A stretch of DNA of 50,919 bases from Nitrosomonadales bacterium. Lineage in GTDB: Bacteria > Pseudomonadota > Gammaproteobacteria > Burkholderiales > SG8-39. Positions 7,307-22,698 of the stretch are shown here, in pieces; within the stretch, counting starts at the first letter, position 1; each line of letters opens with the position of its first letter. The notes under the pieces were generated by a model. The model was not told the origin of the DNA. It saw nothing but the letters and a program-made list of their open reading frames with translations, and ran no database searches. The stretch lies in NCBI GenBank assembly GCA_005240145.1, contig SBAS01000058.1:1-50919 (forward strand), given 5' to 3'. A program made the translations under genes and the position numbers.

Positions 7307-8095
7307 ATGAGAATCGTCAATGAGGCGGCATCGACTCGATCCCGGGAGGCCCGCGCCGACAGCGCCGAATGGCGCATGCGCGTCGACCTTGCGGCCGCGC
7401 ACCGGATCGCCTTCTTCCAGGGCCTGAGCGAGGGGATCTTCAACCACCTCACCTGCTCGGTGCCGGGCAAGCCCGACCGCTACCTGCAGATCCCCTTCGG
7501 CCTGCACTGGTCCGAGATCACCGCGAGCTGCTTCCTGGAGGTCGGCCACGACGGCAAGGTGCTCAAGGGCGAAGGCGAACGCGAGCTCTCGGGCTATTGC
7601 ATCCATGCGCCGATCCATCGCCTGATTCGCGATGCGGTCTGCGTCATGCACACCCACATGCCGTTCGCCTCCGCCCTGGCACGCCTGGAGGACCCGAAAA
7701 TCCAGCCCATCGGCCAGACCGAGGTCGGCCTGATGAAGGACGTGGTCTACGACGATCACTACACCGGCCCGGCGTTCGAATGCGAAGAAGGCGAGCGGCT
7801 CGCCGGCCTGCTCGGCGGGAAGACGGTGATGATCATGGCCAATCACGGCGTGCTCACCGTCGGCAAATCCGTCGCCGAAGCCTACGACAGCCTCTACTAC
7901 CTCGAGCGCGTCGCGCAGGTGCAGCTCTACGCGATGTGGACCGGGCAGAGGCTCAAGCCCCTGCCGCAGGACGTGGTCGACAAGACCATGGCCACGATCG
8001 GCGGGCCCTCGTATGGCAAGAAGCCGCACTGGGAGCACCACTTTGAGGCGCTCAAGCGCATGCTCGACCGGCGCGAGCCGGATTACAAGGACTAG
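7307..8095 (+). CDS. Class II aldolase/adducin family protein
   Basis: This 262-residue protein belongs to the zinc-dependent class II aldolase/adducin family (fuculose-phosphate aldolase-like), which cleaves or decarboxylates hydroxy-carbonyl substrates. The zinc ligands are visible: MHTHMPF (His115 and His117) and MANHGVLT (His180). EGIFNHLTCSVPG around residues 42-54 is the substrate-loop motif. A good ribosome-binding site (AGGACAGGAG) precedes the ATG, and TAGAAT at 7266-7271 is a plausible -10 box. It lacks sugar-phosphate specificity markers that I can recognise. It is closer in appearance to the short 'class II aldolase/adducin' proteins of catabolic clusters. Its 3' end overlaps the convergent deacetylase by 4 nt. 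Confidence 0.9.
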   Translation: MRIVNEAASTRSREARADSAEWRMRVDLAAAHRIAFFQGLSEGIFNHLTCSVPGKPDRYLQIPFGLHWSEITASCFLEVGHDGKVLKGEGERELSGYCIHAPIHRLIRDAVCVMHTHMPFASALARLEDPKIQPIGQTEVGLMKDVVYDDHYTGPAFECEEGERLAGLLGGKTVMIMANHGVLTVGKSVAEAYDSLYYLERVAQVQLYAMWTGQRLKPLPQDVVDKTMATIGGPSYGKKPHWEHHFEALKRMLDRREPDYKD

Positions 8096-8973
8096 GCGGG
8101 CGCTTCCTCGCGGTACCAGTTGGCGATTTCTTCGCCAACCATGAAGACGGTGTCGCTGCGCGCCAGCAGCGTATCCAGGATCTCGCGGAAAAAGCCGATG
8201 CGGTGCGGCACGCCTGTCAAATGCGGGTGCACGGGCAGCGTGAGGATCCTCGGCTGGCCGGTGCGCGCGATCTCGCGCTCGAACGTCTGCAGCGTCTGCG
8301 CGACCCGCAGCGGCATCTCGCTCGAGGAGTGCTTCTCGATCGCGTAGACCACGCTGTCGTTCAGCTCCAGGCTGTAGGGCAGCGAGAGCATCGGGCCATG
8401 CTTCGTTTCCATCCACGCCGGCAAGTCGTCGACGACCCACTGGTACACGTATTCGATCCCCGCCTCCTTCAGCAGGTCCGGGGTATCGAACGTTTCCGAC
8501 CAGCCCGGGCTCATCCAGCCGCGCGGCCGCTTGCCGGTAAAGGCCTCGAGCGCGGAGAGCGCGCCGTTGATCAGGCCGCGCTCGTCGCTTTCGGTGCCGA
8601 GCGAGCGCTGGTGAATGCCGTGGCCGACGAACTCCCAGCCCGCCTCGCGCACCGCGCGCGCGAGGTCCGGATAGATTTCCAGGACGCTGGCGTTGATGCT
8701 CGCGCTCGCCGGCAGCTTCCGCTCGCCCAGTGCCTGCAGCAGGCGCGGCATGCCGCAGCGGTTGCCGTATTCCGACCAGCTGAAGTTCGGGATGTCGGGG
8801 ATGTGCGAGCGGCCGTGCGGCGGCACCACGATCGTGCGCGGCATCGGCTGGTCGAACTGCCAGTACTCGATGTTTACCACCACGTGCACGATCAGCGGCT
8901 TGCCGCCGGGCGCGCGCAGCTTCGCGCGCGCGCTCGACATTTCGTAGGCAATGCGCGGATTGGAGCTAGGCAT
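8092..8973 (-). CDS. Polysaccharide deacetylase family protein (PuuE-related)
   Basis: This 293-residue NodB-fold protein is distantly related to the broken PuuE-like gene at 4404-5350. Shared landmarks are the N-terminal strand PLIVHVVVNIEYW, ASINASVLEIYPDLARAVREAGWEFVGHGIHQRSLG (His-bearing metal motif), GKRPRGWMSPGWSETFDTPDLLKEAGIEYVYQWVVDDLP, and LTLPVHPHLTGVPHR. These enzymes remove acyl groups or open cyclic ureides in a metal-dependent way. The pocket residues differ from chitin deacetylases, so a small-molecule amidohydrolase role is more likely. Its start overlaps the end of the PLP-enzyme gene by 8 nt, so the two are translationally coupled and probably act in one pathway. Confidence 0.88.
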   Translation of the reverse strand: MPSSNPRIAYEMSSARAKLRAPGGKPLIVHVVVNIEYWQFDQPMPRTIVVPPHGRSHIPDIPNFSWSEYGNRCGMPRLLQALGERKLPASASINASVLEIYPDLARAVREAGWEFVGHGIHQRSLGTESDERGLINGALSALEAFTGKRPRGWMSPGWSETFDTPDLLKEAGIEYVYQWVVDDLPAWMETKHGPMLSLPYSLELNDSVVYAIEKHSSSEMPLRVAQTLQTFEREIARTGQPRILTLPVHPHLTGVPHRIGFFREILDTLLARSDTVFMVGEEIANWYREEAPA

Positions 8974-10138
8974 TCAGGACCTTCCTCAGCGCCGCCGCGA
9001 GCGTGGCATCATCCTCGGGCCGCAGCGCCTGCGGATCGACGATGAGCATTCCCTGACCGGCGTAGCGCTCGGAAAGATGAACCGGCGGATTGCCGGCCTG
9101 CAGTCTGCGGCTCACGGCGGCTGGATTTCTTACTTTCAGATGGAGTTGAGGGACGCGGCCCGTCTCGCTGGCGGGAACAATCCTGCCATTCAAACCCCTG
9201 GAGATTTTTCCGAGACGCCGTTCCAGGGCCGCATTCGAAGCCTTGTCGTCCGCTGCGGCAAAGCGCTCGAGCGCAACGAGCAGCCCGACGATCTCTTCCT
9301 TGCCCACCTTGAAGCCCCGGCCGAGGCCGTGGTGCGGAATGCCTTTCATCTTCCGCAGATCGATCAAGCTTGGTGGCACCCAGGTGGCGTGCGGCACGTC
9401 CATGTCGAGCTGCTGAACGAGCGCCGAGCCGACGAGGTCGCGCCGGCCGGCGAGGATCCCCGAGGCCTGCGGGCCGCCGATCGCCTTGCCCCCGGAGAAC
9501 ACGACCAGGTCGGCGCCGAGTTGGAAGAATTTTTTCAGGTTGGACTTTGGCGGGAGCTGGGCTGCCGCATCGACGAGGACGGGAATGCCTTTCGCTCTGC
9601 AGGCTTTTACCGCAACGGGAAGATCGGAAACGTTTGCCGCATTCGCCGAAATCGCGAAGGCGGCGGTTCTCGGCGTGATTGCCGACTCGATCTCCCAGGG
9701 CTCCAGCCCGCGCACGCCCGCGCCGGTGCCGCGGTCGTTGTGGCCGATATCGACGATGCGGGCGCCCGCGGCGCGCAGCGCATGCGCATAGCCGGTGTAG
9801 TGCGTGCGCGGCAGCAGGATCTCGTTGGCAAAGCCCTCTGCCTGCGGCAGCGCGGCCATTTTCGCGATGTCCCAGCGCGTCATCGCCGCCGCTGCAGCGA
9901 GCGTGAGCGCGGCGGATGCGCCGGTGGTGACGATGCCGGCCTGCGCGCCGGTGAGCCGGGAAATCGTGCGGCTCGCCGCCTGCTGCAGTTCGCCGATGTC
10001 CACCGAGGCGCGGGCCGCCGCGGCCATCGCGGCGAGCACCTCCTCGTGCATGAGCGCGCCGCCCAGCCGGGTGAGGGTTCCGGCCGCATTGATGCGGCGT
10101 TTCACACCCAGCGTCGCGTAAAAGTGGTCCGGTTTCAT
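8966..10138 (-). CDS. SelA-like PLP-dependent aminotransferase/lyase
   Basis: This 390-residue fold-type I PLP enzyme resembles selenocysteine synthase SelA and D-glucosaminate-6-phosphate ammonia-lyase-like proteins. INAAGTLTRLGG at residues 16-27 and GELQQAASRTISRLTGAQAG at 49-68 are diagnostic of this group. Asp190 in VLVDAAAQLP contacts the cofactor, and Lys218 in FSGGKAIGGPQASG is the Schiff-base lysine. True SelA is larger and lies beside selB/selC, neither of which is here, so a beta-elimination or racemase-type reaction on a small amino compound is more likely. The start is the ATG at 10138. It is divergent from hyuB with only 23 bp between start codons and is coupled to the downstream deacetylase. 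Confidence 0.88.
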   Translation of the reverse strand: MKPDHFYATLGVKRRINAAGTLTRLGGALMHEEVLAAMAAAARASVDIGELQQAASRTISRLTGAQAGIVTTGASAALTLAAAAAMTRWDIAKMAALPQAEGFANEILLPRTHYTGYAHALRAAGARIVDIGHNDRGTGAGVRGLEPWEIESAITPRTAAFAISANAANVSDLPVAVKACRAKGIPVLVDAAAQLPPKSNLKKFFQLGADLVVFSGGKAIGGPQASGILAGRRDLVGSALVQQLDMDVPHATWVPPSLIDLRKMKGIPHHGLGRGFKVGKEEIVGLLVALERFAAADDKASNAALERRLGKISRGLNGRIVPASETGRVPQLHLKVRNPAAVSRRLQAGNPPVHLSERYAGQGMLIVDPQALRPEDDATLAAALRKVLNA

Positions 10139-10150
10139 GGGGCAGACAAA

Positions 10151-10156
10151 TATAAT
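10151..10156 (+). promoter_or_regulatory. Possible -10 box for hyuB (very short leader)
   Basis: A consensus TATAAT ends 5 nt before the hyuB ATG at 10162, inside a 23-bp divergent gap. If used, transcription would begin at or next to the start codon. There is no good -35, so this could be chance; an upstream promoter inside the divergent gene is the alternative. Confidence 0.35.
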
Positions 10157-10161
10157 AAGGC

Positions 10162-11937
10162 ATGGACCCGATCGCCTTCGAGCTGTTCAAGAATTCCATC
10201 TTCTCGATCGCCGACGAGATGGCGCTGACCGTGTTCCGCACCACCTACTCGGGCGTGCTCAAGGACAACATGGATTACTCGACCGGGTTCGCCGACGCCG
10301 AGGGCAGGCTGGTCGCGCAGGGGCTGACGCTCCCGGGGCACCTGGGCTCGGTGCCGACCGCCATGCAGTCGATCATGAAGCACTACCGTGACGACATCCG
10401 CGAGGGCGACGTGTTCATCATGAACGACCCCTTTGACGGCGGCATGCACCTGCCCGACATCTTCGTCTTCAAGCCGCTGTTCCACCGGGGCGAGCGCATC
10501 GCCTTCGCCTGCACCGTATGCCACCACAGCGACGTCGGCGGCCGTGTCGCGGGCTCGAACGCCTCGGACTCGACCGAGATCTACGCCGAGGGGCTGCGCA
10601 TCGCGCCGCTCAAGATGTACGAGGCGGGCAAGCTGAACCAGACGCTGATGACCTTCATCGAGAGGAACGTGCGCCTGCCGGTGCAGGTGTTCGGCGACCT
10701 GCGCGCCCAGCTCGCCGCCTGCCATATCGCCGAGAAGCAGTTCGCCGAACTGGTCGCGCGCCACGGCGTGAAAGAGATCAAGCATCTGATGCGCGAGACG
10801 ATCGACTACGCCGAGCGCCTGACGCGCGCTGCTCTGAAGGCGCTGCCCGACGGCCAGTGGCAGTTCGAGGACTGGATCGACGACGACGGCGTCGACTACG
10901 GCAAGCCGATCCGCCTCTTCGTCACCCTGCGCAAGAAGGGCGGCCACATGGTGGTCGACTGGACGGGCACCTCCCCGCAGGTGAAGGGCGCGATCAACAA
11001 CACGCTCTCCTTCACCAAGGCGGCGTCCTACACCGGCGTGCGCTCGGTTCTGCCCCAGGGCATTCCGAACAACGAGGGCGTGTTCCGCGCCATCGAGGTG
11101 ATCTGCCCGCCCGGTACCGTGGGCAACGGCGTGCTGCCCGCCGCGTGCGCCGCGCGTGGCCTCACGGGATTTCGCATGACCGATTGCATGTTCGGGGCGC
11201 TCGCGATGATGCTGCCCGACAAGGTGAAGGCGGCGGGCGACGGCGGCAACACCGGCGTCTCCATCGGCGGCTACGACGCGGCGCGCAAGCCCTTCATCTA
11301 TGTCGACTTCACCTGCGGCGCGTGGGGCGCGCGCCCCTGGGCCGATGGCCTGGACGGCAACTCGCACATGTTCGCCAACATGGCCTCGCACTCGATCGAG
11401 GTCACCGAGCTTGAGCAGCCGATGCAGTTCCTTGCCTACGAGTTCGTGCCCGACAAGGCGGGCGCGGGCAAGTACCGCGGCGGCGTGCCGTTCCGGCGCG
11501 ACTACCGCTTCCTCGAGGAGGAAGGCGTGCTGCAGGTGCGCTCCGACCGGCGCACGCACCGTCCCTTCGGCCTGTATGGCGGCAGCCCGGGCATGCCTTC
11601 GGAGAACTATCTCGACCCGGACCTGGAGAACCGCATCCTGCCGAGCAAATTCACCATGACCATCAAACGGGGGCAGATCTTCCGCCACGTGCTCGCCGGC
11701 GCCGGCGGCTGGGGCGACCCGCTCGAGCGCGATCCCGCGGCAGTTCTCAAGGACGTGCGCAACGAACTGCTCTCGCCCGCCAAGGCGGCAGCGGACTATG
11801 GTGTTGTCGTTTCCGGAAAAGAAGTTGATGCAAGGGCAACTGAAAGAAAGCGTACTGAAATGAGGGCCCAACGAAACTGGAACTCGGTCCCCGCAGTGCA
11901 GCGCGAGGATCCGGTCCTTCCCAGAAAAGCTGCGTAA
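10162..11937 (+). CDS. hyuB: Hydantoinase B/oxoprolinase family protein (HyuB), copy 1
   Basis: This 591-residue HyuB-type subunit normally pairs with HyuA for ATP-dependent opening of cyclic amides (5-oxoproline, N-methylhydantoin). Related subunits form acetone/acetophenone carboxylases. Landmarks are DPIAFELFKNSIFSIADEMALTVFRT at the N-terminus, GDVFIMNDPFDGGMHLPDIFV around residue 85-105, CHHSDVGGRVAGSNA around residue 120, and FHRGRGVP-like GKYRGGVPFRRDY near residue 440. The C-terminus HVLAGAGGWGDPLERDP is the normal domain end, followed by a tail of about 55 residues. The partner hyuA starts with GTG immediately after the TAA stop, so the pair is coupled. The order B-A is opposite to the second pair at 17695-21332. 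Confidence 0.93.
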   Translation: MDPIAFELFKNSIFSIADEMALTVFRTTYSGVLKDNMDYSTGFADAEGRLVAQGLTLPGHLGSVPTAMQSIMKHYRDDIREGDVFIMNDPFDGGMHLPDIFVFKPLFHRGERIAFACTVCHHSDVGGRVAGSNASDSTEIYAEGLRIAPLKMYEAGKLNQTLMTFIERNVRLPVQVFGDLRAQLAACHIAEKQFAELVARHGVKEIKHLMRETIDYAERLTRAALKALPDGQWQFEDWIDDDGVDYGKPIRLFVTLRKKGGHMVVDWTGTSPQVKGAINNTLSFTKAASYTGVRSVLPQGIPNNEGVFRAIEVICPPGTVGNGVLPAACAARGLTGFRMTDCMFGALAMMLPDKVKAAGDGGNTGVSIGGYDAARKPFIYVDFTCGAWGARPWADGLDGNSHMFANMASHSIEVTELEQPMQFLAYEFVPDKAGAGKYRGGVPFRRDYRFLEEEGVLQVRSDRRTHRPFGLYGGSPGMPSENYLDPDLENRILPSKFTMTIKRGQIFRHVLAGAGGWGDPLERDPAAVLKDVRNELLSPAKAAADYGVVVSGKEVDARATERKRTEMRAQRNWNSVPAVQREDPVLPRKAA

Positions 11938-14016
11938 GTGACCGGTTACCGAGTCGGTGTCGATGTCGGCGGCACCTTCACGGACATCGTGCTGCTCGGG
12001 TCCGACGGCACGATCCACACCAAGAAGGTCTCCTCCAGCGTCGGCAATTACGCGCAGGCGATCGTAGAGGGGCTTGCCGAGGTCATGCGCGAAACCGGGC
12101 TGGCCGGCGGCGCGCTCGAGGAGATCCGCCACGGCACGACAGTCGCCTCGAACGCGATCCTCGAGCACAAGGGCGCGCGCACCGGCCTGATCACCACCAG
12201 GGGCTTTCGCGACGTGCTCGAGATCCGCACGCTGCGCATGCCGCGCATGTACGACATCGCCTGGACCAAGCCCGTGGCGCTGGTCGAGCGCTATCTCAGG
12301 AAGACGGTGGATGAGCGCGTCAATGCCGCGGGCGCGGTCGAGCGGGCGCTCGACCAGCGTGAAGCCGAGCGGGTGGTGGACGAGCTCCTGGCAGAGAAAG
12401 TGGAAGCGATCGCGGTCTGCCTGCTGCATTCATTCTCGAATTCTTCCCATGAATTGCTGCTGAAGAAGATCGTGCAAAGGAAGGCCCCGTCCCTGCCCTG
12501 TTCCGTCTCGTGCGAAGTCCTGCCCGAAATCAAGGAGTACGAGCGCACTTCGACCACCGTCATCAATGCCTACGTGACGCCTGTCGTTGCCACCTACCTC
12601 AAGGCGCTGCGCCAGGGCCTGGACCGCGCGGGCGTCGGTGCGCGCGTGCTGCTCATGCAGTCGAACGGCGGGCTCACCACCGACGCCGCAGCCATCGAGC
12701 GGCCGATCCACGTCATCGAGTCCGGACCCGCGGGCGGCGTGGTCGGCGCGCAAGCCCTCGCGCGCGCGAAGAAACTGCCGGGGATCATCACCTTCGACAT
12801 GGGGGGCACCACCGCCAAGGCCTCGATCGTCGAGCGCGGCGAGGTGACGCGCGCGCAGGAGTACGCGGTCGGCGCCGGCATCATGGTCGGCTCGCGCCTG
12901 CTCACCGGCGCGGGCTACACGCTCAAGGTGCCGGCGATCGATCTGGCGGAAGTCGGCGCCGGCGGCGGCTCGCACGTCTGGCTCGACCCCGCGGGCGCGC
13001 TCCAGGTCGGGCCCGAGAGCGCCGGCGCCGCGCCCGGGCCGGTGTGCTACGACGCGGGCGGCGAGATCCCGACGGTCACCGACGCGAACCTCGTCCTCGG
13101 TTTTCTCAATCCTTCCTACCTGGTGGGCGGCGCTTTAAGAATCAATAGTGAAAAAGCCAGACGAATTTTCGCGGAACGAATCGCCAAACCCCTCGGCATG
13201 AGCGTAGAGCGCGCGGCGCACGGCGCGCACCTGATCGCCGCCTCGAACATGATCCGCGCGATCAAGGCGGTCTCCACCGAGCGCGGCCGCGACCCGCGCC
13301 GGTTCGCGCTGTTCGCTTTCGGTGGCAACGGCCCGGTGTTCGGCTGCGGCATGGCGGCGGCGCTCGGCATGAAGCGCGTCGTCGTGCCGCCCTCGGCGGG
13401 CCTCTTCTCCTCCTTCGGCCTGCTCTACGCCGACGTCGAGCACCACTATTCGCGCACGCTCAGGCGCCTGCTGCGCAAATCGGATCTCGGCGAGATCCGC
13501 AAAGCCTGGGACGCGCTCGCGGACCAGGCTCGCGAGCAGCTTGCCGCGGAAGGTTTTATCGGAAAGAGAGCGCGAATCCGACGCGCCGCGGCCCTGCACT
13601 ACCACGGCCAGACCTACGAGCTCACCGTGCCGCTGCCGGAGGGCCCGATCGATCTCAGGAAGCTGGAAGAGGCCTTCGGCCGCGAGCACGAGAAGACCTA
13701 CGGCCACCGCGCGGGCGAGGACGAGCCGGTCGAGCTGGTGTCGATCCAGGTGGTCGGCCAGGGCCTGCGCGAGGGGCCCAGTGTCCCGAAACGCGTGCGC
13801 CCGAGCCGCGCCGAGCCCGCGCCGCCCGCGCCTCGGAAAGCCTATTTCGGTCCGAAGCTGGGTTGGCTCAAGACGCCTGTCTTGCGCCGTTCCGATCTGT
13901 CGAAGGCGCGCAAGGGTCCTTTGATCGTCGAAGAGTACGACGCGACCTGTGTCATCCCGCCTGGGGCAATAGCCGGGCTGGATGCCGGCGGCAACATCGC
14001 TATCGAGCTCGGCTGA
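11938..14016 (+). CDS. hyuA: Hydantoinase/oxoprolinase A subunit (HyuA), copy 1
   Basis: This 692-residue ATP-binding subunit belongs to the actin/ASKHA-like hydantoinase A family. The N-terminal phosphate-binding motif RVGVDVGGTFTDIVLL is at residues 4-19. HGTTVASNAILEHKGARTGLITT follows around residues 65-87, and the second phosphate motif ITFDMGGTTAKAS lies around residue 285. SGPAGGVVGA and GAGGGSHVWLD are further family markers. It starts with GTG directly after hyuB. It ends 7 nt before the convergent TRAP permease stop. Codons around 12430-12490, 13130-13180 and 13550-13580 are unusually AT-rich (TTA, AGA, CGA) compared with the rest. Substrate could be a hydantoin, oxoproline-like lactam or a ketone; the sequence alone does not decide. 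Confidence 0.93.
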   Translation: MTGYRVGVDVGGTFTDIVLLGSDGTIHTKKVSSSVGNYAQAIVEGLAEVMRETGLAGGALEEIRHGTTVASNAILEHKGARTGLITTRGFRDVLEIRTLRMPRMYDIAWTKPVALVERYLRKTVDERVNAAGAVERALDQREAERVVDELLAEKVEAIAVCLLHSFSNSSHELLLKKIVQRKAPSLPCSVSCEVLPEIKEYERTSTTVINAYVTPVVATYLKALRQGLDRAGVGARVLLMQSNGGLTTDAAAIERPIHVIESGPAGGVVGAQALARAKKLPGIITFDMGGTTAKASIVERGEVTRAQEYAVGAGIMVGSRLLTGAGYTLKVPAIDLAEVGAGGGSHVWLDPAGALQVGPESAGAAPGPVCYDAGGEIPTVTDANLVLGFLNPSYLVGGALRINSEKARRIFAERIAKPLGMSVERAAHGAHLIAASNMIRAIKAVSTERGRDPRRFALFAFGGNGPVFGCGMAAALGMKRVVVPPSAGLFSSFGLLYADVEHHYSRTLRRLLRKSDLGEIRKAWDALADQAREQLAAEGFIGKRARIRRAAALHYHGQTYELTVPLPEGPIDLRKLEEAFGREHEKTYGHRAGEDEPVELVSIQVVGQGLREGPSVPKRVRPSRAEPAPPAPRKAYFGPKLGWLKTPVLRRSDLSKARKGPLIVEEYDATCVIPPGAIAGLDAGGNIAIELG

Positions 14017-14023
14017 GCCGCGC

Positions 14024-15310
14024 TCACTCCGACGCGACGCGCGGCAGCCAGAGCGCGAGCTGCGGCCAGTAGGAGAGGAGCGCAAGCATCAGGATCATGG
14101 TGACGACGAAGGGCGAAGAGCCGATGATGACGTCGTCGATCTTGCCGCGCTTGCGCAGGCCTTGCACCACGTAGAGATTGATGCCCACCGGCGGCGTGAT
14201 CATCGCCGTCTCCATGAGGATCACGATCAGCACGCCGAACCAGATCGGGTCGTAGCCCGCCTTCACCATGATCGGGGCGATGATCGGCACCGTGGCGACC
14301 ATCATGGAGAGCGTCTCCATGAAGCAGCCGAGGACGAGGTAGAACACGATCACCGCCAGCAGCAGCCCGGCCGGGGAGAGGCCGAGCTCCGTGATCGCGC
14401 GGTTGACCTGCGCGGTGAGGCCGATGGAGCTGATGACGAAGTTGAGGAAATACGCGGCAATCAGGATCGCCATGATCATGGCGGTGGTGCGCATCGTGCC
14501 CTCGAAGGCGTGCAGCAGCATGCGCAGGCTCAGGCTGCGGTGCCAGGCGGCGACGCCGAGGGCGGCGAGCACGCCGAGCGCGGCAGACTCGGTGGCGGTC
14601 GCAAATCCCCCGTAGATCGAACCGATCACCGCGATGAAGATGAGCAGCGGCGGAATCAGGTCGGGCAGGGCGCGGATGCGGGATTTCCAATTGGTGGTCG
14701 TGCGCCTGCCGCCGAACTCCGGCCGCACCAGGCAGATGAGAAGCACCGTCAGGCTGAACAGGCCCGCCAGCACGAGGCCCGGAATGATGCCGGCGAGATA
14801 GAGCTTGGGGATCGACGCATCGGTGAGCACCCCGTAGACGATCAGGTTGATGGAAGGCGGAATCAGGATGCCGAGCGTGCCGCCCGCGGCGATGGTGCCG
14901 AGGAACAGCCGCTCGGAGTAGCCGTGCTTCTTGATCTCGCCCATCGCCACCGTGCCGATGGTGGCGGCGGTGGCGACGCTCGAGCCGGAGGTGGCGGCGA
15001 ACATCGCGCAGGCGGCGATGTTGGAGTGCATCAGGCCCCCGGGAAGCCAGGGCACCCACAGCACGAGCGCGTTGTACATGCGTTCGGCCACTCCCGAGCG
15101 CAGCAGGATTTCGCCCAGCAGCACGAAGAACGGGATGGCGACGAGGAGGAAGTTGTTGGACGTCGCCCAGGCCATCTCGCCGATGGCGAGCGTGAGCGGC
15201 AGCTTCGAGTACAACTCGGAGAGCGCCACGCCGAGAAAGCCAAGCGCCGCGGCTACCGGCACGGCGAGCGCCAGCAGCCCGATCAGGATCGCGAGCGCGC
15301 TCCAGAGCAT
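14024..15310 (-). CDS. dctM: TRAP transporter large permease (DctM family), second system
   Basis: This 428-residue, roughly 12-helix permease is of the common DctM size. Hallmarks are AIPFFVLLGEILLRSGVAERMYNALV, SGSSVATAATIGTVAMGEI, IAAGGTLGILIPPSINLIVYG, and a C-terminal TPPVGINLYVVQGL. FATATESAALGVLAALG is the conserved ATxTE motif of the translocation core. Its ATG overlaps the dctQ stop by one base (TGATG), so translation is coupled. It lies between the two hyu pairs, converging on hyuA copy 1, which suggests that the system imports the hyu substrate. Confidence 0.95.
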   Translation of the reverse strand: MLWSALAILIGLLALAVPVAAALGFLGVALSELYSKLPLTLAIGEMAWATSNNFLLVAIPFFVLLGEILLRSGVAERMYNALVLWVPWLPGGLMHSNIAACAMFAATSGSSVATAATIGTVAMGEIKKHGYSERLFLGTIAAGGTLGILIPPSINLIVYGVLTDASIPKLYLAGIIPGLVLAGLFSLTVLLICLVRPEFGGRRTTTNWKSRIRALPDLIPPLLIFIAVIGSIYGGFATATESAALGVLAALGVAAWHRSLSLRMLLHAFEGTMRTTAMIMAILIAAYFLNFVISSIGLTAQVNRAITELGLSPAGLLLAVIVFYLVLGCFMETLSMMVATVPIIAPIMVKAGYDPIWFGVLIVILMETAMITPPVGINLYVVQGLRKRGKIDDVIIGSSPFVVTMILMLALLSYWPQLALWLPRVASE

Positions 15311-15873
15311 CAGCGTTCCTTCAGCTCCCGGATCTCGTCCTCGACCTCCTCCATCACCGAGCGCGTGCTGATGGCGCCCGCCGCCGCCGCCGCGTCGCCG
15401 CGCGCGATCTGCAGCAAGGCGTGCGCGAGCAGCGCCACGCCGATCGCGAGAAACACCGCCAGGCCGGCGAGCCAGATCGACTGCGGGATCACCGTAGGCG
15501 TGGCAAGCGCCGACTGGCTGCGCGAGGACGACACCCAGGACTGCTCGACCACGCTCCAGCCGTGGCGCGCGATGAGGCCGAAAAAGGCGAGCAACAGCGC
15601 GATGCCGGCGAAATCGAGCGCGAGGCGCAACCAGCGGGGGAAATAGCCGTAAAGCGAATCGATGCGGATGTGGGCGCGGTCGAGGAGCGCCGCGCCGAGC
15701 GACCAGGCGGTGCCCAGCGCAAGCGCGTAGCCCGCGAGTTCATCGGCCCCGCCGATTGACGCGTTGAAAAACTTGCGCAGGGTGACGTCGATGCCGATCA
15801 GTACGGCGGCGGCGAGCACCAGCGCGCCGCCGAACCAAAGGCCGAAGCGGGTTACGCTGCGCACAAGCCCCAT
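15310..15873 (-). CDS. dctQ: TRAP transporter small permease (DctQ family), second system
   Basis: This 187-residue membrane protein starts at the ATG at 15873; the longer open frame upstream runs through dctP out of frame. Four hydrophobic helices lie at about residues 12-30, 46-66, 85-105 and 131-153. DVTLRKFFNASIGGADELAGYALALGTAWSLGAALLDRAHIRID is the canonical DctQ core. The hydrophilic C-terminus (EEVEDEIRELKER) is charged and probably cytoplasmic. It lies between dctP, 20 nt upstream, and dctM, with which it overlaps by 1 nt, giving the usual P-Q-M order on the minus strand. Confidence 0.94.
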   Translation of the reverse strand: MGLVRSVTRFGLWFGGALVLAAAVLIGIDVTLRKFFNASIGGADELAGYALALGTAWSLGAALLDRAHIRIDSLYGYFPRWLRLALDFAGIALLLAFFGLIARHGWSVVEQSWVSSSRSQSALATPTVIPQSIWLAGLAVFLAIGVALLAHALLQIARGDAAAAAGAISTRSVMEEVEDEIRELKER

Positions 15874-15893
15874 CGGCGAGCCTGCGAGAGGGT

Positions 15894-16952
15894 TCAGTTC
15901 GTCGGCGCCCTCAGGCCCAGCGCCTTGCCGACGGTGTTGTTCCACTCCGCGGCGCATTCGGCGCCGCAGCGCTTCGCCCAGCCGGCAAGCACCGCGCCCT
16001 CCACCAGTTTCTTGTGCGTCTCGGCCTCGGCCGGCTTCACCGGCACGATCGTGATGCCGGCCAGCTTGCCCATGGTGCAGGGCGGCTTGCCGGTATTGCA
16101 GTTGTCGGCCTCTCCATCCGCCTTCTTGAGCGTCGCCCACATCTTGTTCTCGTACGCCTTCACTTGCTCGAGCATGAAGCCCTGCACGCGCTTGTCCAGC
16201 CGGTTCCAGCTCGTCAGGTTCACCGCCATCACGTTGATGCTCCAGCCGAGCGACATGGGGTAGAGCGATTTCGTCACCTCGGGCCAGCCCGCAGTATTGC
16301 CCGACAGACTGCCGGTGACGCCGCAGTCGACGACGCCGTTGTTCAGCGCCGGCACCACTTCGGCGAACGCCATGCTGACCGCGGTGGCGCCGACGCCGGA
16401 GAGGAAGTCGCGCATGGTGTTGTTGAACACGCGCACCTTCTTGCCCTTGAGGTCGGCGAGGCCGCCGAGCACGCCGCGGCACCAGAATACCTGCGGCGGG
16501 TTGCCGCCGAAGGCGAGTAGTTTCGCGTTCCAGTTCTTCTGCATCTGGCGGTCGATCACCGCGCGGTAGGCCTCGCAGCCGGCGCGCGCCTTGTCCGCAT
16601 CGAGGGTGATGCCGGCGAGGTCGCAGCCTTCGAAGCGCGGGTCGTCACCCGCCATCTTGGAAATATCCATGCCGGCGAAGTCCATCACGCCGAGGCGCAG
16701 GAGGCGCAGCATCGTCTTGTCATCGACGCCCATCTGGTCGAGCGGCGTGATGTCCGCGGTAATCGCCCCTTTGGACGCCTTGGGTAGGATGTCGCGCCAG
16801 AACGGCACTTCGTCGATGATCGACGCCACCGTTGGGCTGTTCAGGCCGATCACCTTGAACTGCGCCTTGGGCAGGTCCTGCGCGTAGCCGGATGAAGCGC
16901 TGGCGGAAGCAAACAGCGAAACTGCGAATGCGGCGAGCGAACGGGTTAGCAT
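15894..16952 (-). CDS. dctP: TRAP transporter substrate-binding protein (DctP), second system
   Basis: This 352-residue periplasmic receptor starts at the ATG at 16952, behind a strong GGAGGAG ribosome-binding site, with a signal peptide up to about residue 24 (SGYAQ). The core GLADLKGKKVRVFNNTMRDFLSGVGATAVSMAFAEVVPALNNGVVDCGVTG is the diagnostic DctP ligand-binding region. Several cysteine residues (for example DNCNTGKPPCTM and KRCGAECAAEW) suggest disulfides in the C-terminal lobe. It differs markedly from the first DctP at 2896-4008, so the two systems probably take different ligands. It heads the dctPQM operon and is divergent from a leftover hyuA 5' fragment. Confidence 0.93.
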   Translation of the reverse strand: MLTRSLAAFAVSLFASASASSGYAQDLPKAQFKVIGLNSPTVASIIDEVPFWRDILPKASKGAITADITPLDQMGVDDKTMLRLLRLGVMDFAGMDISKMAGDDPRFEGCDLAGITLDADKARAGCEAYRAVIDRQMQKNWNAKLLAFGGNPPQVFWCRGVLGGLADLKGKKVRVFNNTMRDFLSGVGATAVSMAFAEVVPALNNGVVDCGVTGSLSGNTAGWPEVTKSLYPMSLGWSINVMAVNLTSWNRLDKRVQGFMLEQVKAYENKMWATLKKADGEADNCNTGKPPCTMGKLAGITIVPVKPAEAETHKKLVEGAVLAGWAKRCGAECAAEWNNTVGKALGLRAPTN

Positions 16953-16977
16953 TGGTAGTCTCCTCCTGTGACCCGTA

Positions 16978-17029
16978 ATACTACCCCCGCCCGCCTCGCC
17001 GCCGACATCGGCGGCACCTGCAACGACGT
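16978..17029 (+). pseudogene. Remnant of a hyuA 5' end
   Basis: Read from the GTG at 16978, the frame encodes TTPARLAADIGGT, matching the N-terminal phosphate-binding motif of the hyuA at 17695 (LPARLAADIGGT). It then decays (CNDVQAF in place of FTDVVLE) and runs into the tail of the minus-strand gst gene. A 34-bp stretch (16986-17019) is identical to 17701-17734. This is best read as a scar left when the gst gene came between dctP and hyuA, or as a partial duplication of the hyuA start. It is far too short to be functional. Confidence 0.75.
16986..17019 (+). repeat. 34-bp direct repeat, left copy (flanks gst)
   Basis: This is identical base for base to 17701-17734, 715 bp away in the same orientation. 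The two copies bracket the gst gene, so recombination between them could delete it. Outside the repeat the sequences diverge at once on both sides. Confidence 0.85.
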
Positions 17030-17641
17030 TCAGGCCTTCGCCGAGGGCCGAGCGTCCATGCGGCCGTACCAGGCGCCCAGGCGGGCGAGGCCCGGGTCGA
17101 GCGGCTGGCCGACGCGCTTGCCGAAAGCGACGAAGCAGTAGAGCAGGATGTCGGCCAGCGTCAGCCGCTCGCCGCACAGGAAGGTCTTGCTGCCCATCTG
17201 CCCGTCCAGCCAGGCGAGCTTTTCGCGCGCGATGCGCTTGAGCCCGTCGGCCGCCTCGGGCAGCACAGTGATCCGGTCCTTGAACATCGCCAGCCCCTCG
17301 GCGTAACGGAATCCGCCGCCCATCGGCTCGACGATGTTCAGGTCCACCCGGCGCGTCCACATGCGCGTCTCGGCACGCTGCTCGGGCGTGGCGCCGATCA
17401 GGCTCGGCGGCGGGGATTTCTCTTCCAGGTATTCGCAGATCGCCGTGACCTCCGCCAGGTAGCTGCCGTCGTCCAGCTGCAGCGTCGGCAGCTGCCCGGC
17501 CGGATTGCGCGCCAGGTGCGCCTCCTTGCGGTTCTCGCCGCCGCGCAGGTCGACCGGCACCAGCTCGAGCACAATGCCCTTCTCCGCCGCGAACATGCGC
17601 ACCACGTGGGGATTGGGTCCTACCGAGTTGTACAGTTTCAT
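17030..17641 (-). CDS. Glutathione S-transferase family protein
   Basis: This 203-residue cytosolic GST begins at MKLYNSVGPNPHVVRMF, with an AAGGA site upstream of the ATG at 17641. The N-terminal thioredoxin-like domain (1-80) contains NPAGQLPTLQLDDGSYLAEVTAICEYLEE, with the cis-proline and the glutathione-binding E-(S/A)-x-A-I region in variant form (AEVTAIC). The C-terminal helical domain includes LCGERLTLADILLYCFVAFG, the N-capping/hydrophobic-staple motif. It is bracketed by the 34-bp repeat and divergent from hyuA copy 2. It may be a later insertion in the hyu/TRAP locus. Whether it serves detoxification of pathway electrophiles is unknown. Confidence 0.9.
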   Translation of the reverse strand: MKLYNSVGPNPHVVRMFAAEKGIVLELVPVDLRGGENRKEAHLARNPAGQLPTLQLDDGSYLAEVTAICEYLEEKSPPPSLIGATPEQRAETRMWTRRVDLNIVEPMGGGFRYAEGLAMFKDRITVLPEAADGLKRIAREKLAWLDGQMGSKTFLCGERLTLADILLYCFVAFGKRVGQPLDPGLARLGAWYGRMDARPSAKA

Positions 17642-17681
17642 GCGGTGTCCTTCCTGGGCAAGCATGGGCTGGGCGGTAAAG

Positions 17682-17687
17682 TATATT
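17682..17687 (+). promoter_or_regulatory. Possible -10 box for hyuA copy 2 (leaderless)
   Basis: TATATT ends 7 nt before the hyuA ATG at 17695, in a 53-bp divergent gap. No ribosome-binding site precedes that ATG. Together these suggest a leaderless or near-leaderless transcript. No convincing -35 is visible. Confidence 0.35.
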
Positions 17688-17694
17688 CGACCTC

Positions 17695-19770
17695 ATGTTA
17701 CCCGCCCGCCTCGCCGCCGACATCGGCGGCACCTTCACCGATGTCGTGCTGGAGCACGCGGGCCGCCGCCACTCGGCCAAGGTGCTCACCACGCCGCGCG
17801 CGCCCGAGGAAGGCATGCTGGAGGGCATCGGGAAAGTCCTGCAGGAAGGCGCGCTGCAGCCTGCCCAGGTCGGCGTCCTGATCCACGGCACCACGCTCGC
17901 CACCAACGCGCTGATCGAGCGCAAGGGCGCAAAGACCGCCCTGCTCACCACCGCGGGCTTTCGCGACGTGATCGAGATGGGCTACGAGAAGCGCTACGAG
18001 CACTACGACCTGGAACTGGAGCTGCCCATGCCGCTGGTGCCGCGCGAGCTGCGCTATCCGGTGGAAGAACGGATGACGGCAAAGGGCGGGATTCACAGGC
18101 CCTTGAATGAAGAATTACTCAAGAAAACCATAGAAATAATAAGAAAAGAAAAAGTTGAAGCCATCGCCGTCGGATTTCTCCATTCGTATGCAGATGATTC
18201 GCACGAACGGCGCGTCGGAGAAATGCTCGCGAAGGCGCTGCCCGGCATCCCGGTGACCCTCTCTGCCGCGGTCTGCCCGGAAATCCGCGAGTACGAGCGC
18301 TTTTCCACCGCCTGCGCCAACGCCTATGTGCAGCCGCTCATGACGAGCTACCTCGAGCGCCTCGCGGCTCAACTGCAACAGCGCGGCTTCGCCTGCCCGA
18401 CGTACCTGATGACCTCCGGCGGGGGACTCACCACGCTCGAGACCGCGCGCCGCTTTCCGGTGCGGCTGGTGGAATCGGGCCCCGCGGGCGGGGCGATCCT
18501 CTCGGCCGGCCTCGCGCGCGAAAACTCCCTCGACGAAGTACTTTCGTTCGACATGGGCGGCACCACCGCCAAAATTTGCTTCATCGGCCAGGGCCGTCCC
18601 GAGCAGTCGCGCAAGTTCGAGGTGGCGCGCATCTGGCGCAACCTGAAGGGCAGCGGCCTGCCGCTGCGCGTGCCCGTGACCGAAATGGTCGAGATCGGTG
18701 CCGGCGGCGGCTCGATCGCGCGCCTGGACCAGTTGCAGCGCATCCAGGTGGGTCCGGCGAGCGCGGGCGCTGAGCCGGGCCCGGCCTGCTACGGGCGCGG
18801 CGGCACCGAGTCCACGGTGACCGATGCCGACGTGGTGCTGGGCCTCATCGACCCGGCCGCGTTCGCCAGCGGGACTCTTCAGCTGAATTTTCGAAAAGCC
18901 GAAAACACGCTCCTCACACGCATTGGCGCCCCGCTCGGCCTCACAGCGGCCTGGGCGGCGGCGGGCGTCACCGAAATCGTCGAGGAGAACATGGCGAGCG
19001 CGGCGCGGGTGCACGCCATCGAGCGCGGCAAGACGCCCGAGCGCTGCACCATGATCGCCTTCGGCGGCGCCGCGCCGCTGCATGCGGCGCGCCTCGCAAT
19101 GAAACTCGGCGTGCGCAAAGTCCTCGTGCCGGTGGATGCGAGCGTCGGTTCGGCGGTGGGGTTCCTGCGCGCGCCGGTGGCCTTCGAGCTCGCGCGCAGC
19201 CTGCGGATGCGGGACGATTCACTTGACTTTTCACTTGTAAATCTTTTACTCGCAAAAATGCAAGGCGAAGCGAAAGCCATCGTCGCCGCCGGCGCTCTCG
19301 GGGCGAAGCTCGCGACGCGCCGCAGCGTGGAGATGCGCTACGAGGGCCAGGGGCATGAAATTTCCGTGCCCCTGCCCGACGGCAGATTGAATGCGCGGCA
19401 CGCGCGCAAGCTGCGCGCCGGGTTCGAGGCGCACTACGAACGGCAGTTCGGCCTGCGCATCGCCGACGTGCCGGTGGAATTCCTGACCTGGTCGGTCAGT
19501 GTCTCGACGGCTGCGAAGAACGCAAGAGAAAAAATCAGGTTGAGGAAGAAATCCAAAGTGACGGCAAGCGGCAAACGCAAGGTTTTCAACCAGGATTCCG
19601 GCACCAGCGTGGCCATCGCCACCTACCTGCGGGCGAGCCTCGCGCCGGGAATGCAATTCGCCGGCCCGGCCCTGGTGGTCGAGCCGCAGACCACCACGCA
19701 GGTGCCGCGCGGGTGGCATTGCAACGTCTTACCCTCAGGACATCTTTTGTTGGTTAATTCGAAATTATGA
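17695..19770 (+). CDS. hyuA: Hydantoinase/oxoprolinase A subunit (HyuA), copy 2
   Basis: This 691-residue paralogue of the HyuA at 11938 has the same landmarks: LAADIGGTFTDVVLEHAG at the start, IHGTTLATNALIERKGAKTALLTT around residue 62-85, SGPAGGAILSAGLA and SFDMGGTTAKICFIG around residue 265-300, and GAGGGSIARLD. The two proteins are clearly different in sequence, so they probably differ in substrate or form distinct subunits of one complex. It overlaps hyuB by 4 nt (ATGA). Several patches (18100-18210, 18880-18930, 19210-19270, 19520-19600) use AT-ending rare codons, and two of them lie at positions homologous to patches in copy 1. The first 34 nt after codon 2 are duplicated beside dctP. 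Confidence 0.93.
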   Translation: MLPARLAADIGGTFTDVVLEHAGRRHSAKVLTTPRAPEEGMLEGIGKVLQEGALQPAQVGVLIHGTTLATNALIERKGAKTALLTTAGFRDVIEMGYEKRYEHYDLELELPMPLVPRELRYPVEERMTAKGGIHRPLNEELLKKTIEIIRKEKVEAIAVGFLHSYADDSHERRVGEMLAKALPGIPVTLSAAVCPEIREYERFSTACANAYVQPLMTSYLERLAAQLQQRGFACPTYLMTSGGGLTTLETARRFPVRLVESGPAGGAILSAGLARENSLDEVLSFDMGGTTAKICFIGQGRPEQSRKFEVARIWRNLKGSGLPLRVPVTEMVEIGAGGGSIARLDQLQRIQVGPASAGAEPGPACYGRGGTESTVTDADVVLGLIDPAAFASGTLQLNFRKAENTLLTRIGAPLGLTAAWAAAGVTEIVEENMASAARVHAIERGKTPERCTMIAFGGAAPLHAARLAMKLGVRKVLVPVDASVGSAVGFLRAPVAFELARSLRMRDDSLDFSLVNLLLAKMQGEAKAIVAAGALGAKLATRRSVEMRYEGQGHEISVPLPDGRLNARHARKLRAGFEAHYERQFGLRIADVPVEFLTWSVSVSTAAKNAREKIRLRKKSKVTASGKRKVFNQDSGTSVAIATYLRASLAPGMQFAGPALVVEPQTTTQVPRGWHCNVLPSGHLLLVNSKL
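17701..17734 (+). repeat. 34-bp direct repeat, right copy (within hyuA)
   Basis: This is codons 3-13 of the intact hyuA plus one base, identical to 16986-17019. It covers the GGT phosphate-binding motif, so the intact gene is presumably the source copy. Confidence 0.85.
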
Positions 19771-21332
19771 ATAAAAAACTAGTGCAACAAATTCTCTGGA
19801 ACCGGCTCATCGCGGTGGTGGAGGAGCAGGCCAACGTGCTGCTCAAGACCGCCTTCGGCACCATCACGCGCGAAGCGGGCGACCTTTCCGCCGGCGTCTA
19901 CGACACCAAGGGCCGCATGCTCGCGCAGGCGGTCACCGGCACGCCGGGGCACGTCAACACCATGGCAGCCGCGGTAGCGCACTTCCTCGAGCGCTTCCCC
20001 GCCCATACGCTCAAGCCCGGCGACGTGCTGGTAACCAACGATCCGTGGCTCGGCACCGGCCACCTGTTCGATTTCGTCACCGTGACGCCGGCCTTCCTGA
20101 AGAAGAAGCTGATCGGCTTTTTCGCCTCCACCTGCCACGTCATCGACATCGGCGGGCGCGGCTTTGTCGCCGAGGCGACCTCGGTCTATGAGGAAGGCCT
20201 GTATGTCCCGCACATGAAGCTGATGGATGCGGGCAAACGCAACCCGACGCTGTTCGCAATCCTCATGGGCAACGTGCGCGAGCCGACGCAGGTGCGCGGC
20301 GACCTGCTGAGCCTCGTCTCCTGCAACGAGGTGGCGACGCGGCGCCTCGCGGCGATGCTGGAGGAATTCGGCCTCTCCGAACTCGACACCCTGGGCGAGT
20401 ACATCGTCTCCACCTCGCGCGAGTCGATGCGCGCCGCGATCCGCAAGTTGCCCTCCGGCACCTGGCGCGCGGCGATGACGCTGGACGGCTACGAATCGCC
20501 CGTCGAGCTCAAGGCCGCGCTCGCGGTGTCGGACGGCGCGATCCACGTCGATTACGCCGGCACTTCGGCCGCCTCGCGCTTCGGCATCAATTCGCCCAAG
20601 TGCTACACCGACGCCTACACCTCGTTCGGCGTCAAATGCATCGTCGCGCCCGGCATTCCGAACAACGCCGGCTCGCTCGAAACGGTCTCGGTCTCGGCGC
20701 CGGAGGATTCGATCGTCAATCCGCTGCGGCCTCGGGCCGTGACCGCACGCCACCTCATCGGCCAGATGCTGCCCGAGCTCGTCTTCGGCTGCTTCGAGGA
20801 GCCGCTCAAGGGGCAAGTGCCGGCGGAGGGCGCCGGCAGCATCTGGATCCTCGGCCTCTCGGGCGGACCGCAGGTGGAGGGCGCGAAGCCCGATGCGAGG
20901 CGCTTCAACGCCCTCTCCATCGGCATCGGCGGCATGGGCGCGCGCCCTGCCAAGCACGGCCTCTCTTCGACCGCGTTTCCGAGCGGCGTCGGCGCGATAC
21001 CCGTGGAGGTCACCGAAGCGCTCTCGCCGCTGCTGTTCCGGCGGCGCGAGCTTGCGGACGGCCCCGGCGGCGAGGGCCGGCAGCGCGGCGGCAAGGGCAC
21101 GGTGATCGAGGTCGAGAACACTGAACCCGCGCCCTTCAGCGTTGCCTGCGCCACCTTCGACCGGCGCCACAACCCGGCGCGCGGCCGCGCCGGCGGCATG
21201 GATGGACGTGTGGGCCGCGTCGGTTTGGCGAGCGGCAAGGTCCTGCCCGGGAAGGAAACCTACGTCGTCCCTGCGGGCGACTGCCTGGTGGCCGAGATGC
21301 CGGGCGGCGGCGGCTACGGCAAGAAATCCTGA
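19767..21332 (+). CDS. hyuB: Hydantoinase B/oxoprolinase family protein (HyuB), copy 2
   Basis: This 521-residue HyuB paralogue is about 70 residues shorter than copy 1. Family motifs are EEQANVLLKTAFGTITREAGDLSAGVYD near the start, GDVLVTNDPWLGTGHLFDFV around residue 90-108, FASTCHVIDIGGRGF, and GMGARPAKHGLSSTAFPSGVGAIPVEVTEALSPLLFRRRELADG. The C-terminal MPGGGGYG is the expected end. The ATG lies within the hyuA stop (ATGA), so both subunits are made together. The P450 start codon follows one base after its stop. Copy 2 is in A-B order, the mirror of copy 1. Confidence 0.92.
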   Translation: MNKKLVQQILWNRLIAVVEEQANVLLKTAFGTITREAGDLSAGVYDTKGRMLAQAVTGTPGHVNTMAAAVAHFLERFPAHTLKPGDVLVTNDPWLGTGHLFDFVTVTPAFLKKKLIGFFASTCHVIDIGGRGFVAEATSVYEEGLYVPHMKLMDAGKRNPTLFAILMGNVREPTQVRGDLLSLVSCNEVATRRLAAMLEEFGLSELDTLGEYIVSTSRESMRAAIRKLPSGTWRAAMTLDGYESPVELKAALAVSDGAIHVDYAGTSAASRFGINSPKCYTDAYTSFGVKCIVAPGIPNNAGSLETVSVSAPEDSIVNPLRPRAVTARHLIGQMLPELVFGCFEEPLKGQVPAEGAGSIWILGLSGGPQVEGAKPDARRFNALSIGIGGMGARPAKHGLSSTAFPSGVGAIPVEVTEALSPLLFRRRELADGPGGEGRQRGGKGTVIEVENTEPAPFSVACATFDRRHNPARGRAGGMDGRVGRVGLASGKVLPGKETYVVPAGDCLVAEMPGGGGYGKKS

Positions 21333-21333
21333 C

Positions 21334-22698
21334 GTGCAGGAAGCGCCGCGGATCACCTTCCCGGCGATCGAAGGCGCGCCGCTCTTCGCGCGCTGGCTCG
21401 GGCTCGCGCCGCGTTTCGACATCATGGCGACGCTCGCGAAAGGCCCGGTCTGCTACACGCGCCTGCTGGGAAAACGCATCTACTTCGTCAACGACGCGGA
21501 GTACGTGAAGCGCATCCTGCTCGACAACCTCGCCAACTATCCCAAGTCCGTCACCTACCGCAACAACCTGCGCCCCTTCCTCGGCGACGGCATGCTGATT
21601 TCGGAAGGCGAGTTCTGGAAGCGCCAGCGGCGCCTCGCGCAGCCTGCGTTCCACCTGCGCCGCCTGAAGGCGCTCGCCGCGACCATGGCCGGGGCCGCAG
21701 CGCGCATGGCCGCGGGCTGGGAGCACGGCAAAGTCGTCGATGTGATGCCGACGATGAACGCAGTGACGATGGAAATCGTCGCGAAGACCCTGTTCGGCGC
21801 CGACGTGAGCCGCGACATCGGCACGGTGGGCGAGGCGATGAACGTGCTGGGCGAGGAAACCGGGCGCATCCGGCCCACCGCTTTCTTCGAGCTGCCCGAG
21901 TTTGTCACGCGGCCGCGCGGCCGCCGCTTCGCCGAGGCGGTGGCGACGCTGGATGCCATCATCAACCGCATGGTCGCCCAGCGCCGCGCCGAAATAGGTC
22001 GGGGCGCTGCGCCGCAGGACGACCTGCTCTCGATGCTGCTCGAAGCGCGCGACGAGGAATCCGGCCAGGGCATGACCGACCGCCAGCTGCGCGACGAACT
22101 GGTGACCCTCTTCCTCGCCGGCCACGAAACTACCTCGATCTCGCTTACCTGGACCTTCCACCTGCTGGCGCAGCACCCCGCCGCCGCAGCAAGGCTGCAG
22201 GCTGAGGTGGATTCCGTACTCGGCGGGAAAGCCGCGCCTTCCTTTGACGACCTCGAGCGCCTGCCGTATGCGCGCATGGTCGCCGAAGAGGCGATGCGCC
22301 TCTATCCGCCGGCCTACGTGTTCAGCCGCCGCGCCGCGGGCGAAGACCTGCTCGGTCCCTGGCGCATCCCCGCGGGTGCCCACATCATCATCAGTCCGTA
22401 TGCGCTGCATCGCCGTCCCGACTACTGGAGCGAGCCCGACAGCTTCAAGCCCGAGCGCTTCGCCGCGGACGGGTCCAACGTTTCGGCCGACCGGCCCAAG
22501 CACGCCTACATTCCCTTCGGCGGCGGCCCGCGCATCTGCATCGGCAATTCCTTCGCCATGATGGAGCACGCCATTGTCATGGGCGCGGTGGTGCGCCGCT
22601 GGCGCCTCGAATCCATCCCCGGCCACGAGGTACGCACCGAGCCGCGCATCACGCTCAGGCCACGCGGCGGCCTGCCGATGCGCGTGCTGCGGCGCTAG
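21334..22698 (+). CDS. Cytochrome P450
   Basis: This heme monooxygenase of about 454 residues starts at the GTG at 21334; the longer upstream frame lies inside hyuB. The I-helix motif FLAGHETTS is near residue 265, EEAMRLYPP is the ExxR region of helix K, and FGGGPRICIGNSFAM holds the heme-ligand cysteine at residue 402. The absence of an N-terminal membrane anchor makes it a soluble class I-type enzyme needing separate ferredoxin and reductase partners; none is adjacent. The overall pattern (FPAIEGAPLFARWLGL, LTRYGDGML-like FLGDGMLISEGEFWKRQRRLAQPAFH) resembles bacterial P450s of the CYP102/CYP4-like side of the family. Its abutment to hyuB suggests the same transcript, perhaps hydroxylating a substrate before or after ring opening. 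Confidence 0.93.
   Translation: MQEAPRITFPAIEGAPLFARWLGLAPRFDIMATLAKGPVCYTRLLGKRIYFVNDAEYVKRILLDNLANYPKSVTYRNNLRPFLGDGMLISEGEFWKRQRRLAQPAFHLRRLKALAATMAGAAARMAAGWEHGKVVDVMPTMNAVTMEIVAKTLFGADVSRDIGTVGEAMNVLGEETGRIRPTAFFELPEFVTRPRGRRFAEAVATLDAIINRMVAQRRAEIGRGAAPQDDLLSMLLEARDEESGQGMTDRQLRDELVTLFLAGHETTSISLTWTFHLLAQHPAAAARLQAEVDSVLGGKAAPSFDDLERLPYARMVAEEAMRLYPPAYVFSRRAAGEDLLGPWRIPAGAHIIISPYALHRRPDYWSEPDSFKPERFAADGSNVSADRPKHAYIPFGGGPRICIGNSFAMMEHAIVMGAVVRRWRLESIPGHEVRTEPRITLRPRGGLPMRVLRR

Follow-up and report, generated by a model that had tools for sequence, protein, structure and literature searches.

The hydantoinase/oxoprolinase (HyuA/HyuB) enzymes include 5-oxoprolinases (PMC8453981), N-methylhydantoinase and caprolactamase, and the acetophenone and acetone carboxylases (Apc and Acx) belong to the same superfamily. 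For caprolactamase, composed of CapA and CapB, the residues of the adenosine triphosphate (ATP) site and the metal ligands are described (PMC8453981), and subunit lengths and gene organisation are available as criteria for the Hyd branch of these enzymes (PMC5214803). Environmental genomes frequently encode HyuAB proteins, nearly all of which are named merely hydantoinase or oxoprolinase. Here, we analysed a contig of 50,919 nucleotides (SBAS01000058.1; G000:C119), referred to in its entirety as the window, from the draft genome of a Nitrosomonadales bacterium (GCA_005240145.1; 3.24 Mb in 130 contigs). In this window two hyu pairs in opposite gene order, hyuB1-hyuA1 (10162–14016, plus strand) and hyuA2-hyuB2 (17695–21332, plus strand), bracket the genes dctM-dctQ-dctP (14024–16952, minus strand) of a tripartite ATP-independent periplasmic (TRAP) transporter. 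A first-pass annotation had proposed that this mirror-image locus is a single uptake-and-ring-opening system. Our analysis indicates that it very probably consists of two independent gene modules lying side by side: HyuBA1 and TRAP are a real and widespread module with a predicted function in uptake and ring opening, and pair 2 has a history of its own. Genes were assigned by open reading frame (ORF) calls and by profile searches with Pfam and NCBIfam, which bore out the genes reported before, including both divergent pairs and the complete transporter, far beyond chance. The pairs are only distantly related (identity is 36% between the HyuA and 30% between the HyuB subunits) and contain the only two HyuB genes of the whole genome.

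A scan with HyuB1 over approximately 85,000 species genomes resulted in 80 loci with 71–89% identity, mostly from Alpha- and Betaproteobacteria. The same TRAP genes are nearby in 45 of the 58 informative loci, which include Alpha- and Betaproteobacteria and one locus of Dehalococcoidia, and where linked they lie mostly convergent with and directly downstream of hyuBA1. In the literature no described TRAP-hydantoinase module was found, and the HyuBA1-TRAP module is, as far as we found, so far undescribed. An orthologue of HyuA2 is present in none of the 80 loci. The gene for a glutathione transferase (GST) between dctP and hyuA2, which had escaped mention in the first-pass annotation, is also absent from the mapped module-1 relatives, with only distant GSTs of at most 30% identity being found. 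In three loci of Elioraea/Falsiroseomonas (L133, positions 10001–20757; L134; L138) dctP is followed, again in mirror layout, by a further hyuA-hyuB pair, which is missing from the related loci L137 and L142. The second pair of Elioraea represents a third HyuA clade, carries Asp at a key position discussed below and is unrelated to pair 2 of the window. Cooperation of the transporter with a second pair is thus conceivable to some extent, but the pair concerned is a different one from that of the window.

Pair 2 is found in other company: most members of the genus have it, with none of the genes of module 1. Among the 14 other loci with HyuA2 orthologues, six of which include over 5 kb of sequence upstream, none contains the TRAP genes or any other module-1 gene. 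Several of these loci keep the NHL-repeat gene (nhl), the enoyl-CoA hydratase gene (ech) and the cytochrome P450 gene: the latter follows hyuAB2 in L047, L048, L050, L051, and L054, and nhl adjoins or lies near hyuA2 in L046, L047, L048, L050, and L052. The gene content between nhl and hyuA2 differs among the relatives, so that genes seem to be readily gained and lost here. As a separate observation, in L058 (genome G038, positions 4696–11454) another TRAP set lies downstream of a HyuAB2-like pair (49–51% identity) in the same orientation, and its DctP is 25% identical to DctP of the window; relatives of pair 2 can thus also adjoin a transporter. Within the 98 genomes of the family together with the genome analysed here, HyuA1 orthologues occur in seven and HyuA2 orthologues in 15, and both occur in two, namely this genome and G062, with about one expected. 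Linkage of both is restricted to the window, since in G062 they are located on separate contigs. The genome G098, closely related in module 1, lacks an orthologue of HyuA2 (best match 38%). In a HyuA tree from a fast search, in which the reference branches are long and which is used only to show that the two window clades are separate, HyuA1 and HyuA2 fall into separate clades with a Shimodaira-Hasegawa-like approximate likelihood ratio test (SH-aLRT) value of 100 each, outside CapA, Apc and Acx. Of the proposed single system, the part which stands is the conserved association of pair 1 with TRAP; the inclusion of pair 2 is contradicted by the missing linkage in both directions, by the separate contigs in G062 and by a scar at the joint described below. 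It had been stated beforehand that pairs which never co-occur elsewhere, or which fall into clades unrelated to the TRAP genes, would speak against one system, and this is what was observed for pair 2, whereas pair 1 behaves otherwise.

Both pairs look catalytically competent as judged from their conserved residues. The metal ligands D38, H96, D99, and H121 of HyuB1 correspond to CapB D41, H99, D102, and H124 and are invariant in the HyuB1 alignment (A1), and HyuB2 keeps the same four positions as D39, H99, D102, and H124. Of the ATP site of CapA, D11 and D295 are retained as D9 and D287 in HyuA1 and as D9 and D286 in HyuA2. Moreover, both pairs show the features of the Hyd branch, i.e., DxGGT (twice) and GxxPGP in the A subunit, the D/H/D/H metal site in the B subunit, and two unfused subunits of approximately 690 (A) and 520–590 (B) amino acids with no third subunit. 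Scored against solved relatives in the order N-methylhydantoinase (7hk5), caprolactamase and carboxylases (Apc/Acx), HyuA1 reaches 433, 371, 259, and 240 bits, HyuB1 319, 247, 140, and 83 bits, HyuA2 371, 362, 262, and 179 bits, and HyuB2 151, 102, and 53–56 bits. By score, both pairs are nearer to the lactam/hydantoin hydrolases than to the ketone carboxylases; the hydrolases rank first among the closest relatives, and Apc and Acx branch outside both HyuA clades. Membership in the ketone carboxylase family was considered and rejected on the scores, on the subunit lengths and because no carboxylase gamma gene lies beside either pair; owing to a Lys discussed below, carboxylation stays under consideration as a mechanism. 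With the caprolactamase equivalog models NF050156/NF050157, pair 1 scores 525/290 bits and pair 2 492/149 bits, below the cut-off of 1000.

The SelA-like gene for a pyridoxal 5'-phosphate (PLP) enzyme and the intact PuuE-like gene are adjacent to each other and divergent from hyuB1. The best solved relative of the PLP enzyme is D-glucosaminate-6-phosphate ammonia lyase (7lc0), and K218 in the motif SGGK is invariant; its score of 177 bits is below the DgaE cut-off of 600 bits. SelA/DgaE-like genes occur beside hyuB1 in betaproteobacterial loci and also in L148 and L146, there with 44% identity. A class-III aminotransferase of the glutamate-1-semialdehyde type is found in loci of Betaproteobacteria, of Elioraea and in two distant loci, and no close copy of it was detected in the present genome (best match 39%). 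A recurring PLP enzyme would agree with ring opening to an amino acid. No paper on SelA-like enzymes of this kind was found in the literature. In the relatives L065/L077 and L078, a PuuE-like gene of 84–87% identity adjoins the PLP gene, and nhl adjoins puuE. The PuuE-like protein scores 88.6 bits with the PuuE allantoinase model TIGR03212, for which the cut-off is 424.6 bits.

All three proteins of the transporter, DctP, DctQ and DctM, are encoded by intact genes. Arg174 of DctP, located in the motif KGKK[IV]RV, is invariant in every intact orthologue of the DctP alignment (A3). In TRAP binding proteins, binding is tied to carboxylates through an Arg (PMC4646407), so that a carboxylated substrate is likely. 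The AlphaFold2 model of DctP has a predicted local distance difference test (pLDDT) value of 84.7, and its best fold match is the pyroglutamate-binding DctP7 (2pfy), with a template modelling (TM) score of 0.90 by target length and 18% identity; the pyroglutamate binders 2pfz and 6wgm appear at fold ranks 5 and 34. Neither sequence nor fold decided on the DctP ligand, as many TRAP binders score alike, and a literature search on TRAP binders of pyroglutamate or orotate yielded nothing that could be used here. Three hydantoinase/carbamoylase-family proteins above cut-off are encoded in the genome, which would suit a hydantoin substrate.

From these data we infer a direction of transport, a chemistry, an order of steps and a class of substrate as follows. 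Module 1 would comprise the SelA/DgaE-like PLP enzyme, hyuB1-hyuA1 and dctMQP, and in this genome also the PuuE-like deacetylase. The TRAP transporter would import a small carboxylate bearing a cyclic amide or ureide, HyuA1 would activate the amide with ATP by phosphorylating its iminol form, following the proposal made for caprolactamase, and the metal site of HyuB1 would hydrolyse the activated amide. The released amino (or ureido) acid would then be passed to a PLP enzyme, here the SelA/DgaE-like protein and elsewhere the class-III aminotransferase. Module 2, i.e., hyuA2-hyuB2, often with the P450 and near nhl and ech, would be a separate enzyme pair, broadly of the same type but with a substrate of its own, and the mirror-like appearance would have arisen by recombination joining module 1 to the 5' end of hyuA2. 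As a whole, we lean towards this two-module explanation including uptake, ATP-driven ring opening and the PLP step. Several observations weigh against it: the TRAP genes are not nearby in 13 of the 58 informative loci, the PLP partner is not universal among the hyuB1 loci, and there is no close relative with known activity or ligand. Furthermore, binders of sialate, lactate and coumarate score close to the pyroglutamate binders, so that the fold match does not settle the ligand, and an exchange of Asp to Lys at the position of CapA Asp302 makes the transfer of a mechanism from the characterised enzymes uncertain.

A special case of this explanation with a named substrate is that pair 1 and TRAP take up 5-oxoproline (pyroglutamate) and open it as a 5-oxoprolinase. 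The pyroglutamic acid binders among the fold matches of DctP, its conserved carboxylate Arg and the presence of 5-oxoprolinases in the enzyme family are in line with it. We nevertheless regard it as unlikely: the identity to 2pfy is low and binders of other ligands score nearly equally; the genome encodes PxpA, a part of the usual bacterial oxoprolinase, which weakens 5-oxoproline as substrate; HyuAB of fused oxoprolinase length in a phylum-wide sample have Asp where HyuA1 has Lys; and a downstream PLP lyase is unneeded for glutamate.

The Lys in question occupies the position of CapA Asp302 in both HyuA proteins (Lys294 in HyuA1 and Lys293 in HyuA2; motif DMGGTTAK) and is present in all 51 members of the HyuA1 and HyuA2 clades in the assembled set. 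Asp is found at this position in 7hk5, CapA, Apc gamma and Acx beta, which are the four characterised enzymes compared, as well as in the second pair of Elioraea and in two other HyuA proteins. A phylum-wide draw of HyuA proteins, which consists mostly of those fused oxoprolinases that score best and does not reflect how frequent the Lys type is, has Asp in 25 of 26 readable sequences, the sole Lys being that of HyuA1 itself. Asp at this position is not known to define the hydantoinase/lactamase branch. The position has been equated with Lys281 of Apc alpha' (PMC8453981), which was placed in a putative bicarbonate site (PMC5214803), and caprolactamase itself requires bicarbonate (PMC8453981). 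Both points would agree with Lys-type HyuA proteins that phosphorylate bicarbonate, making the pairs carboxylases or obligate users of carboxyphosphate rather than plain ATP-dependent hydrolases; the subunit lengths and overall scores, which fit hydrolases, the lack of a gamma subunit beside the pairs and the neighbouring PLP enzymes, which suit amino-acid products, render this distinctly unlikely. An equally long shot is the more specific proposal of a Lys-type (GGTTAK) HyuA class, set apart from the four characterised enzymes aligned, in which the Lys would form an Apc alpha'-like bicarbonate site and the TRAP-linked HyuBA1 would be a two-subunit bicarbonate-consuming enzyme, either a carboxylase or a ring opener driven by carboxyphosphate, with a dedicated transporter supplying it.

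The joint between the two modules is visible in the sequence. Positions 16909–16986 align with DNA upstream of dctP in G062 (L065), and the match stops at 16986, where a 44-bp partial copy of hyuA2 begins as a direct repeat, followed by gst and the intact hyuA2. The alignment score of the repeat is 73, compared with a maximum of 36 in 200 shuffles. In our reading, the joint is a derived feature of this lineage, probably made by recombination onto the 5' end of hyuA2. That the juxtaposition is instead an assembly chimera and not the true chromosome order could be suspected from the fragmented draft assembly and from the fact that the layout was found in no other genome, but the repeat at the joint is just 44 bp long and imperfect (93%), which is short for a misjoin, the guanine-plus-cytosine content is even across the joint (64.5–69%), and nhl stands beside puuE in two other genomes, which makes a chimera very unlikely. 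Most improbable of all is the earlier suggestion that the two pairs form one hetero-oligomer or act on successive intermediates with an Apc-like alpha/alpha' division of labour, which is favoured by their vicinity on one contig and by the unrelated second pairs at the same relative place in L133, L134, and L138, but which was rejected as there is no excess of co-occurrence, linkage only in the window and the scar, and against which also stand the different clade and the Asp of the second pair in Elioraea, the same Lys in both HyuA proteins, offering no alpha/alpha' split, and a search for acetone-carboxylase gamma (PF08882), run without a positive control, that found no match in this genome.

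The features of the locus are collected in Table 1.

Table 1. Coordinates and supporting matches of the two hyu modules and of neighbouring genes in the window.
Feature	Position	Strand	Supporting evidence
hyuB1, metal-site subunit of pair 1	10162-11937	+	PF02538 548 bits
hyuA1, ATP-binding subunit of pair 1	11938-14016	+	PF01968/PF05378/PF19278
dctM, TRAP large permease	14024-15310	-	TIGR00786 333 bits, above cut-off; orthologues beside hyuBA1
dctQ, TRAP small permease	15310-15864 (start approximate)	-	PF04290 73.5 bits
dctP, TRAP solute-binding protein	15894-16952	-	NF037995 81.6 bits, above cut-off
Scar, 44-bp copy of hyuA2 5' end	16986-17029	+	41/44 identical to 17701-17744
gst, glutathione transferase family gene, in neither module	17030-17641	-	PF13409/PF02798/PF00043
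hyuA2, ATP-binding subunit of pair 2	17695-19770	+	PF01968/PF05378
hyuB2, metal-site subunit of pair 2	19767-21332	+	PF02538 458 bits
Cytochrome P450, pair-2 associate	21334-22698	+	PF00067 292 bits
SelA/DgaE-like PLP enzyme, divergent from hyuB1	8966-10138	-	NF047797 177 bits, TIGR01437 166 bits, both under cut-off
PuuE-like polysaccharide-deacetylase-family hydrolase, module-1 associate	8092-8973	-	PF01522 37 bits; TIGR03212 88.6 bits
Class II aldolase	7307-8095	+	
NHL-repeat beta-propeller gene	6213-7199	-	PF01436
Broken PuuE-like deacetylase gene	~4404-5460	-	Split over two reading frames; true frameshift or sequencing error

Of the two PuuE-type genes reported as contiguous with the locus, one is indeed broken, but it is not contiguous with the intact copy, as the enoyl-CoA hydratase and NHL-repeat genes lie between them. 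Elsewhere in the window, a second TRAP set is present at 701–4008, with dctQ and a longer dctM on the plus strand facing dctP on the minus strand. An open frame of 259 amino acids at 38072–38851 has good coding bias and no Pfam match and is located beside ABC transporter genes of the branched-chain amino-acid type, and two gene pairs at 33096–33733 and 49359–50088 resemble, as judged by eye, VapBC-type antitoxin/PIN toxin pairs.

A HyuBA clade that spans two classes of Proteobacteria with 71–89% HyuB identity and, for the most part, one and the same TRAP transporter likely serves one important substrate, and the binding protein DctP offers a direct route to the substrate of module 1. The exchange of Asp to Lys marks two clades for which mechanisms should not be taken over unchanged from known enzymes. 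As such, the mirror arrangement is nothing unusual, and it cautions against assuming that adjacent paralogous pairs of a draft genome belong to a single system.

Compared with known systems, the acetophenone and acetone carboxylases share with the window pairs the superfamily, the ASKHA-type ATP site, the metal site and, in Apc alpha' Lys281, the Lys, but they possess gamma (and alpha', epsilon) subunits in addition, their subunits are longer, and the scores are much lower. The DgaE/SelA-related PLP ammonia lyases (7lc0) agree with the PLP enzyme in the PLP Lys and in the fold family and differ by its score far below the family cut-off. Bordetella DctP6/DctP7, which bind pyroglutamate, provide with 2pfy the closest fold match of the DctP model and share the carboxylate Arg, whereas sequence identity is low and other ligand classes score alike. 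N-methylhydantoinase (7hk5) is the best-scoring solved relative of both pairs, yet it is only 38% identical to HyuA1, is a fused HyuA-HyuB protein of 1288 amino acids and has Asp at the position of the window Lys. No TRAP transporter of this kind is known to us beside the cap genes. Caprolactamase CapAB from Pseudomonas jessenii (6yra) differs by approximately 35% identity of the A subunits and by Asp302 of CapA, which is Lys in both window HyuA proteins, and it resembles the window pairs in its two unfused subunits, in the B-A order of pair 1 and in the retained metal ligands and ATP-site Asp residues.

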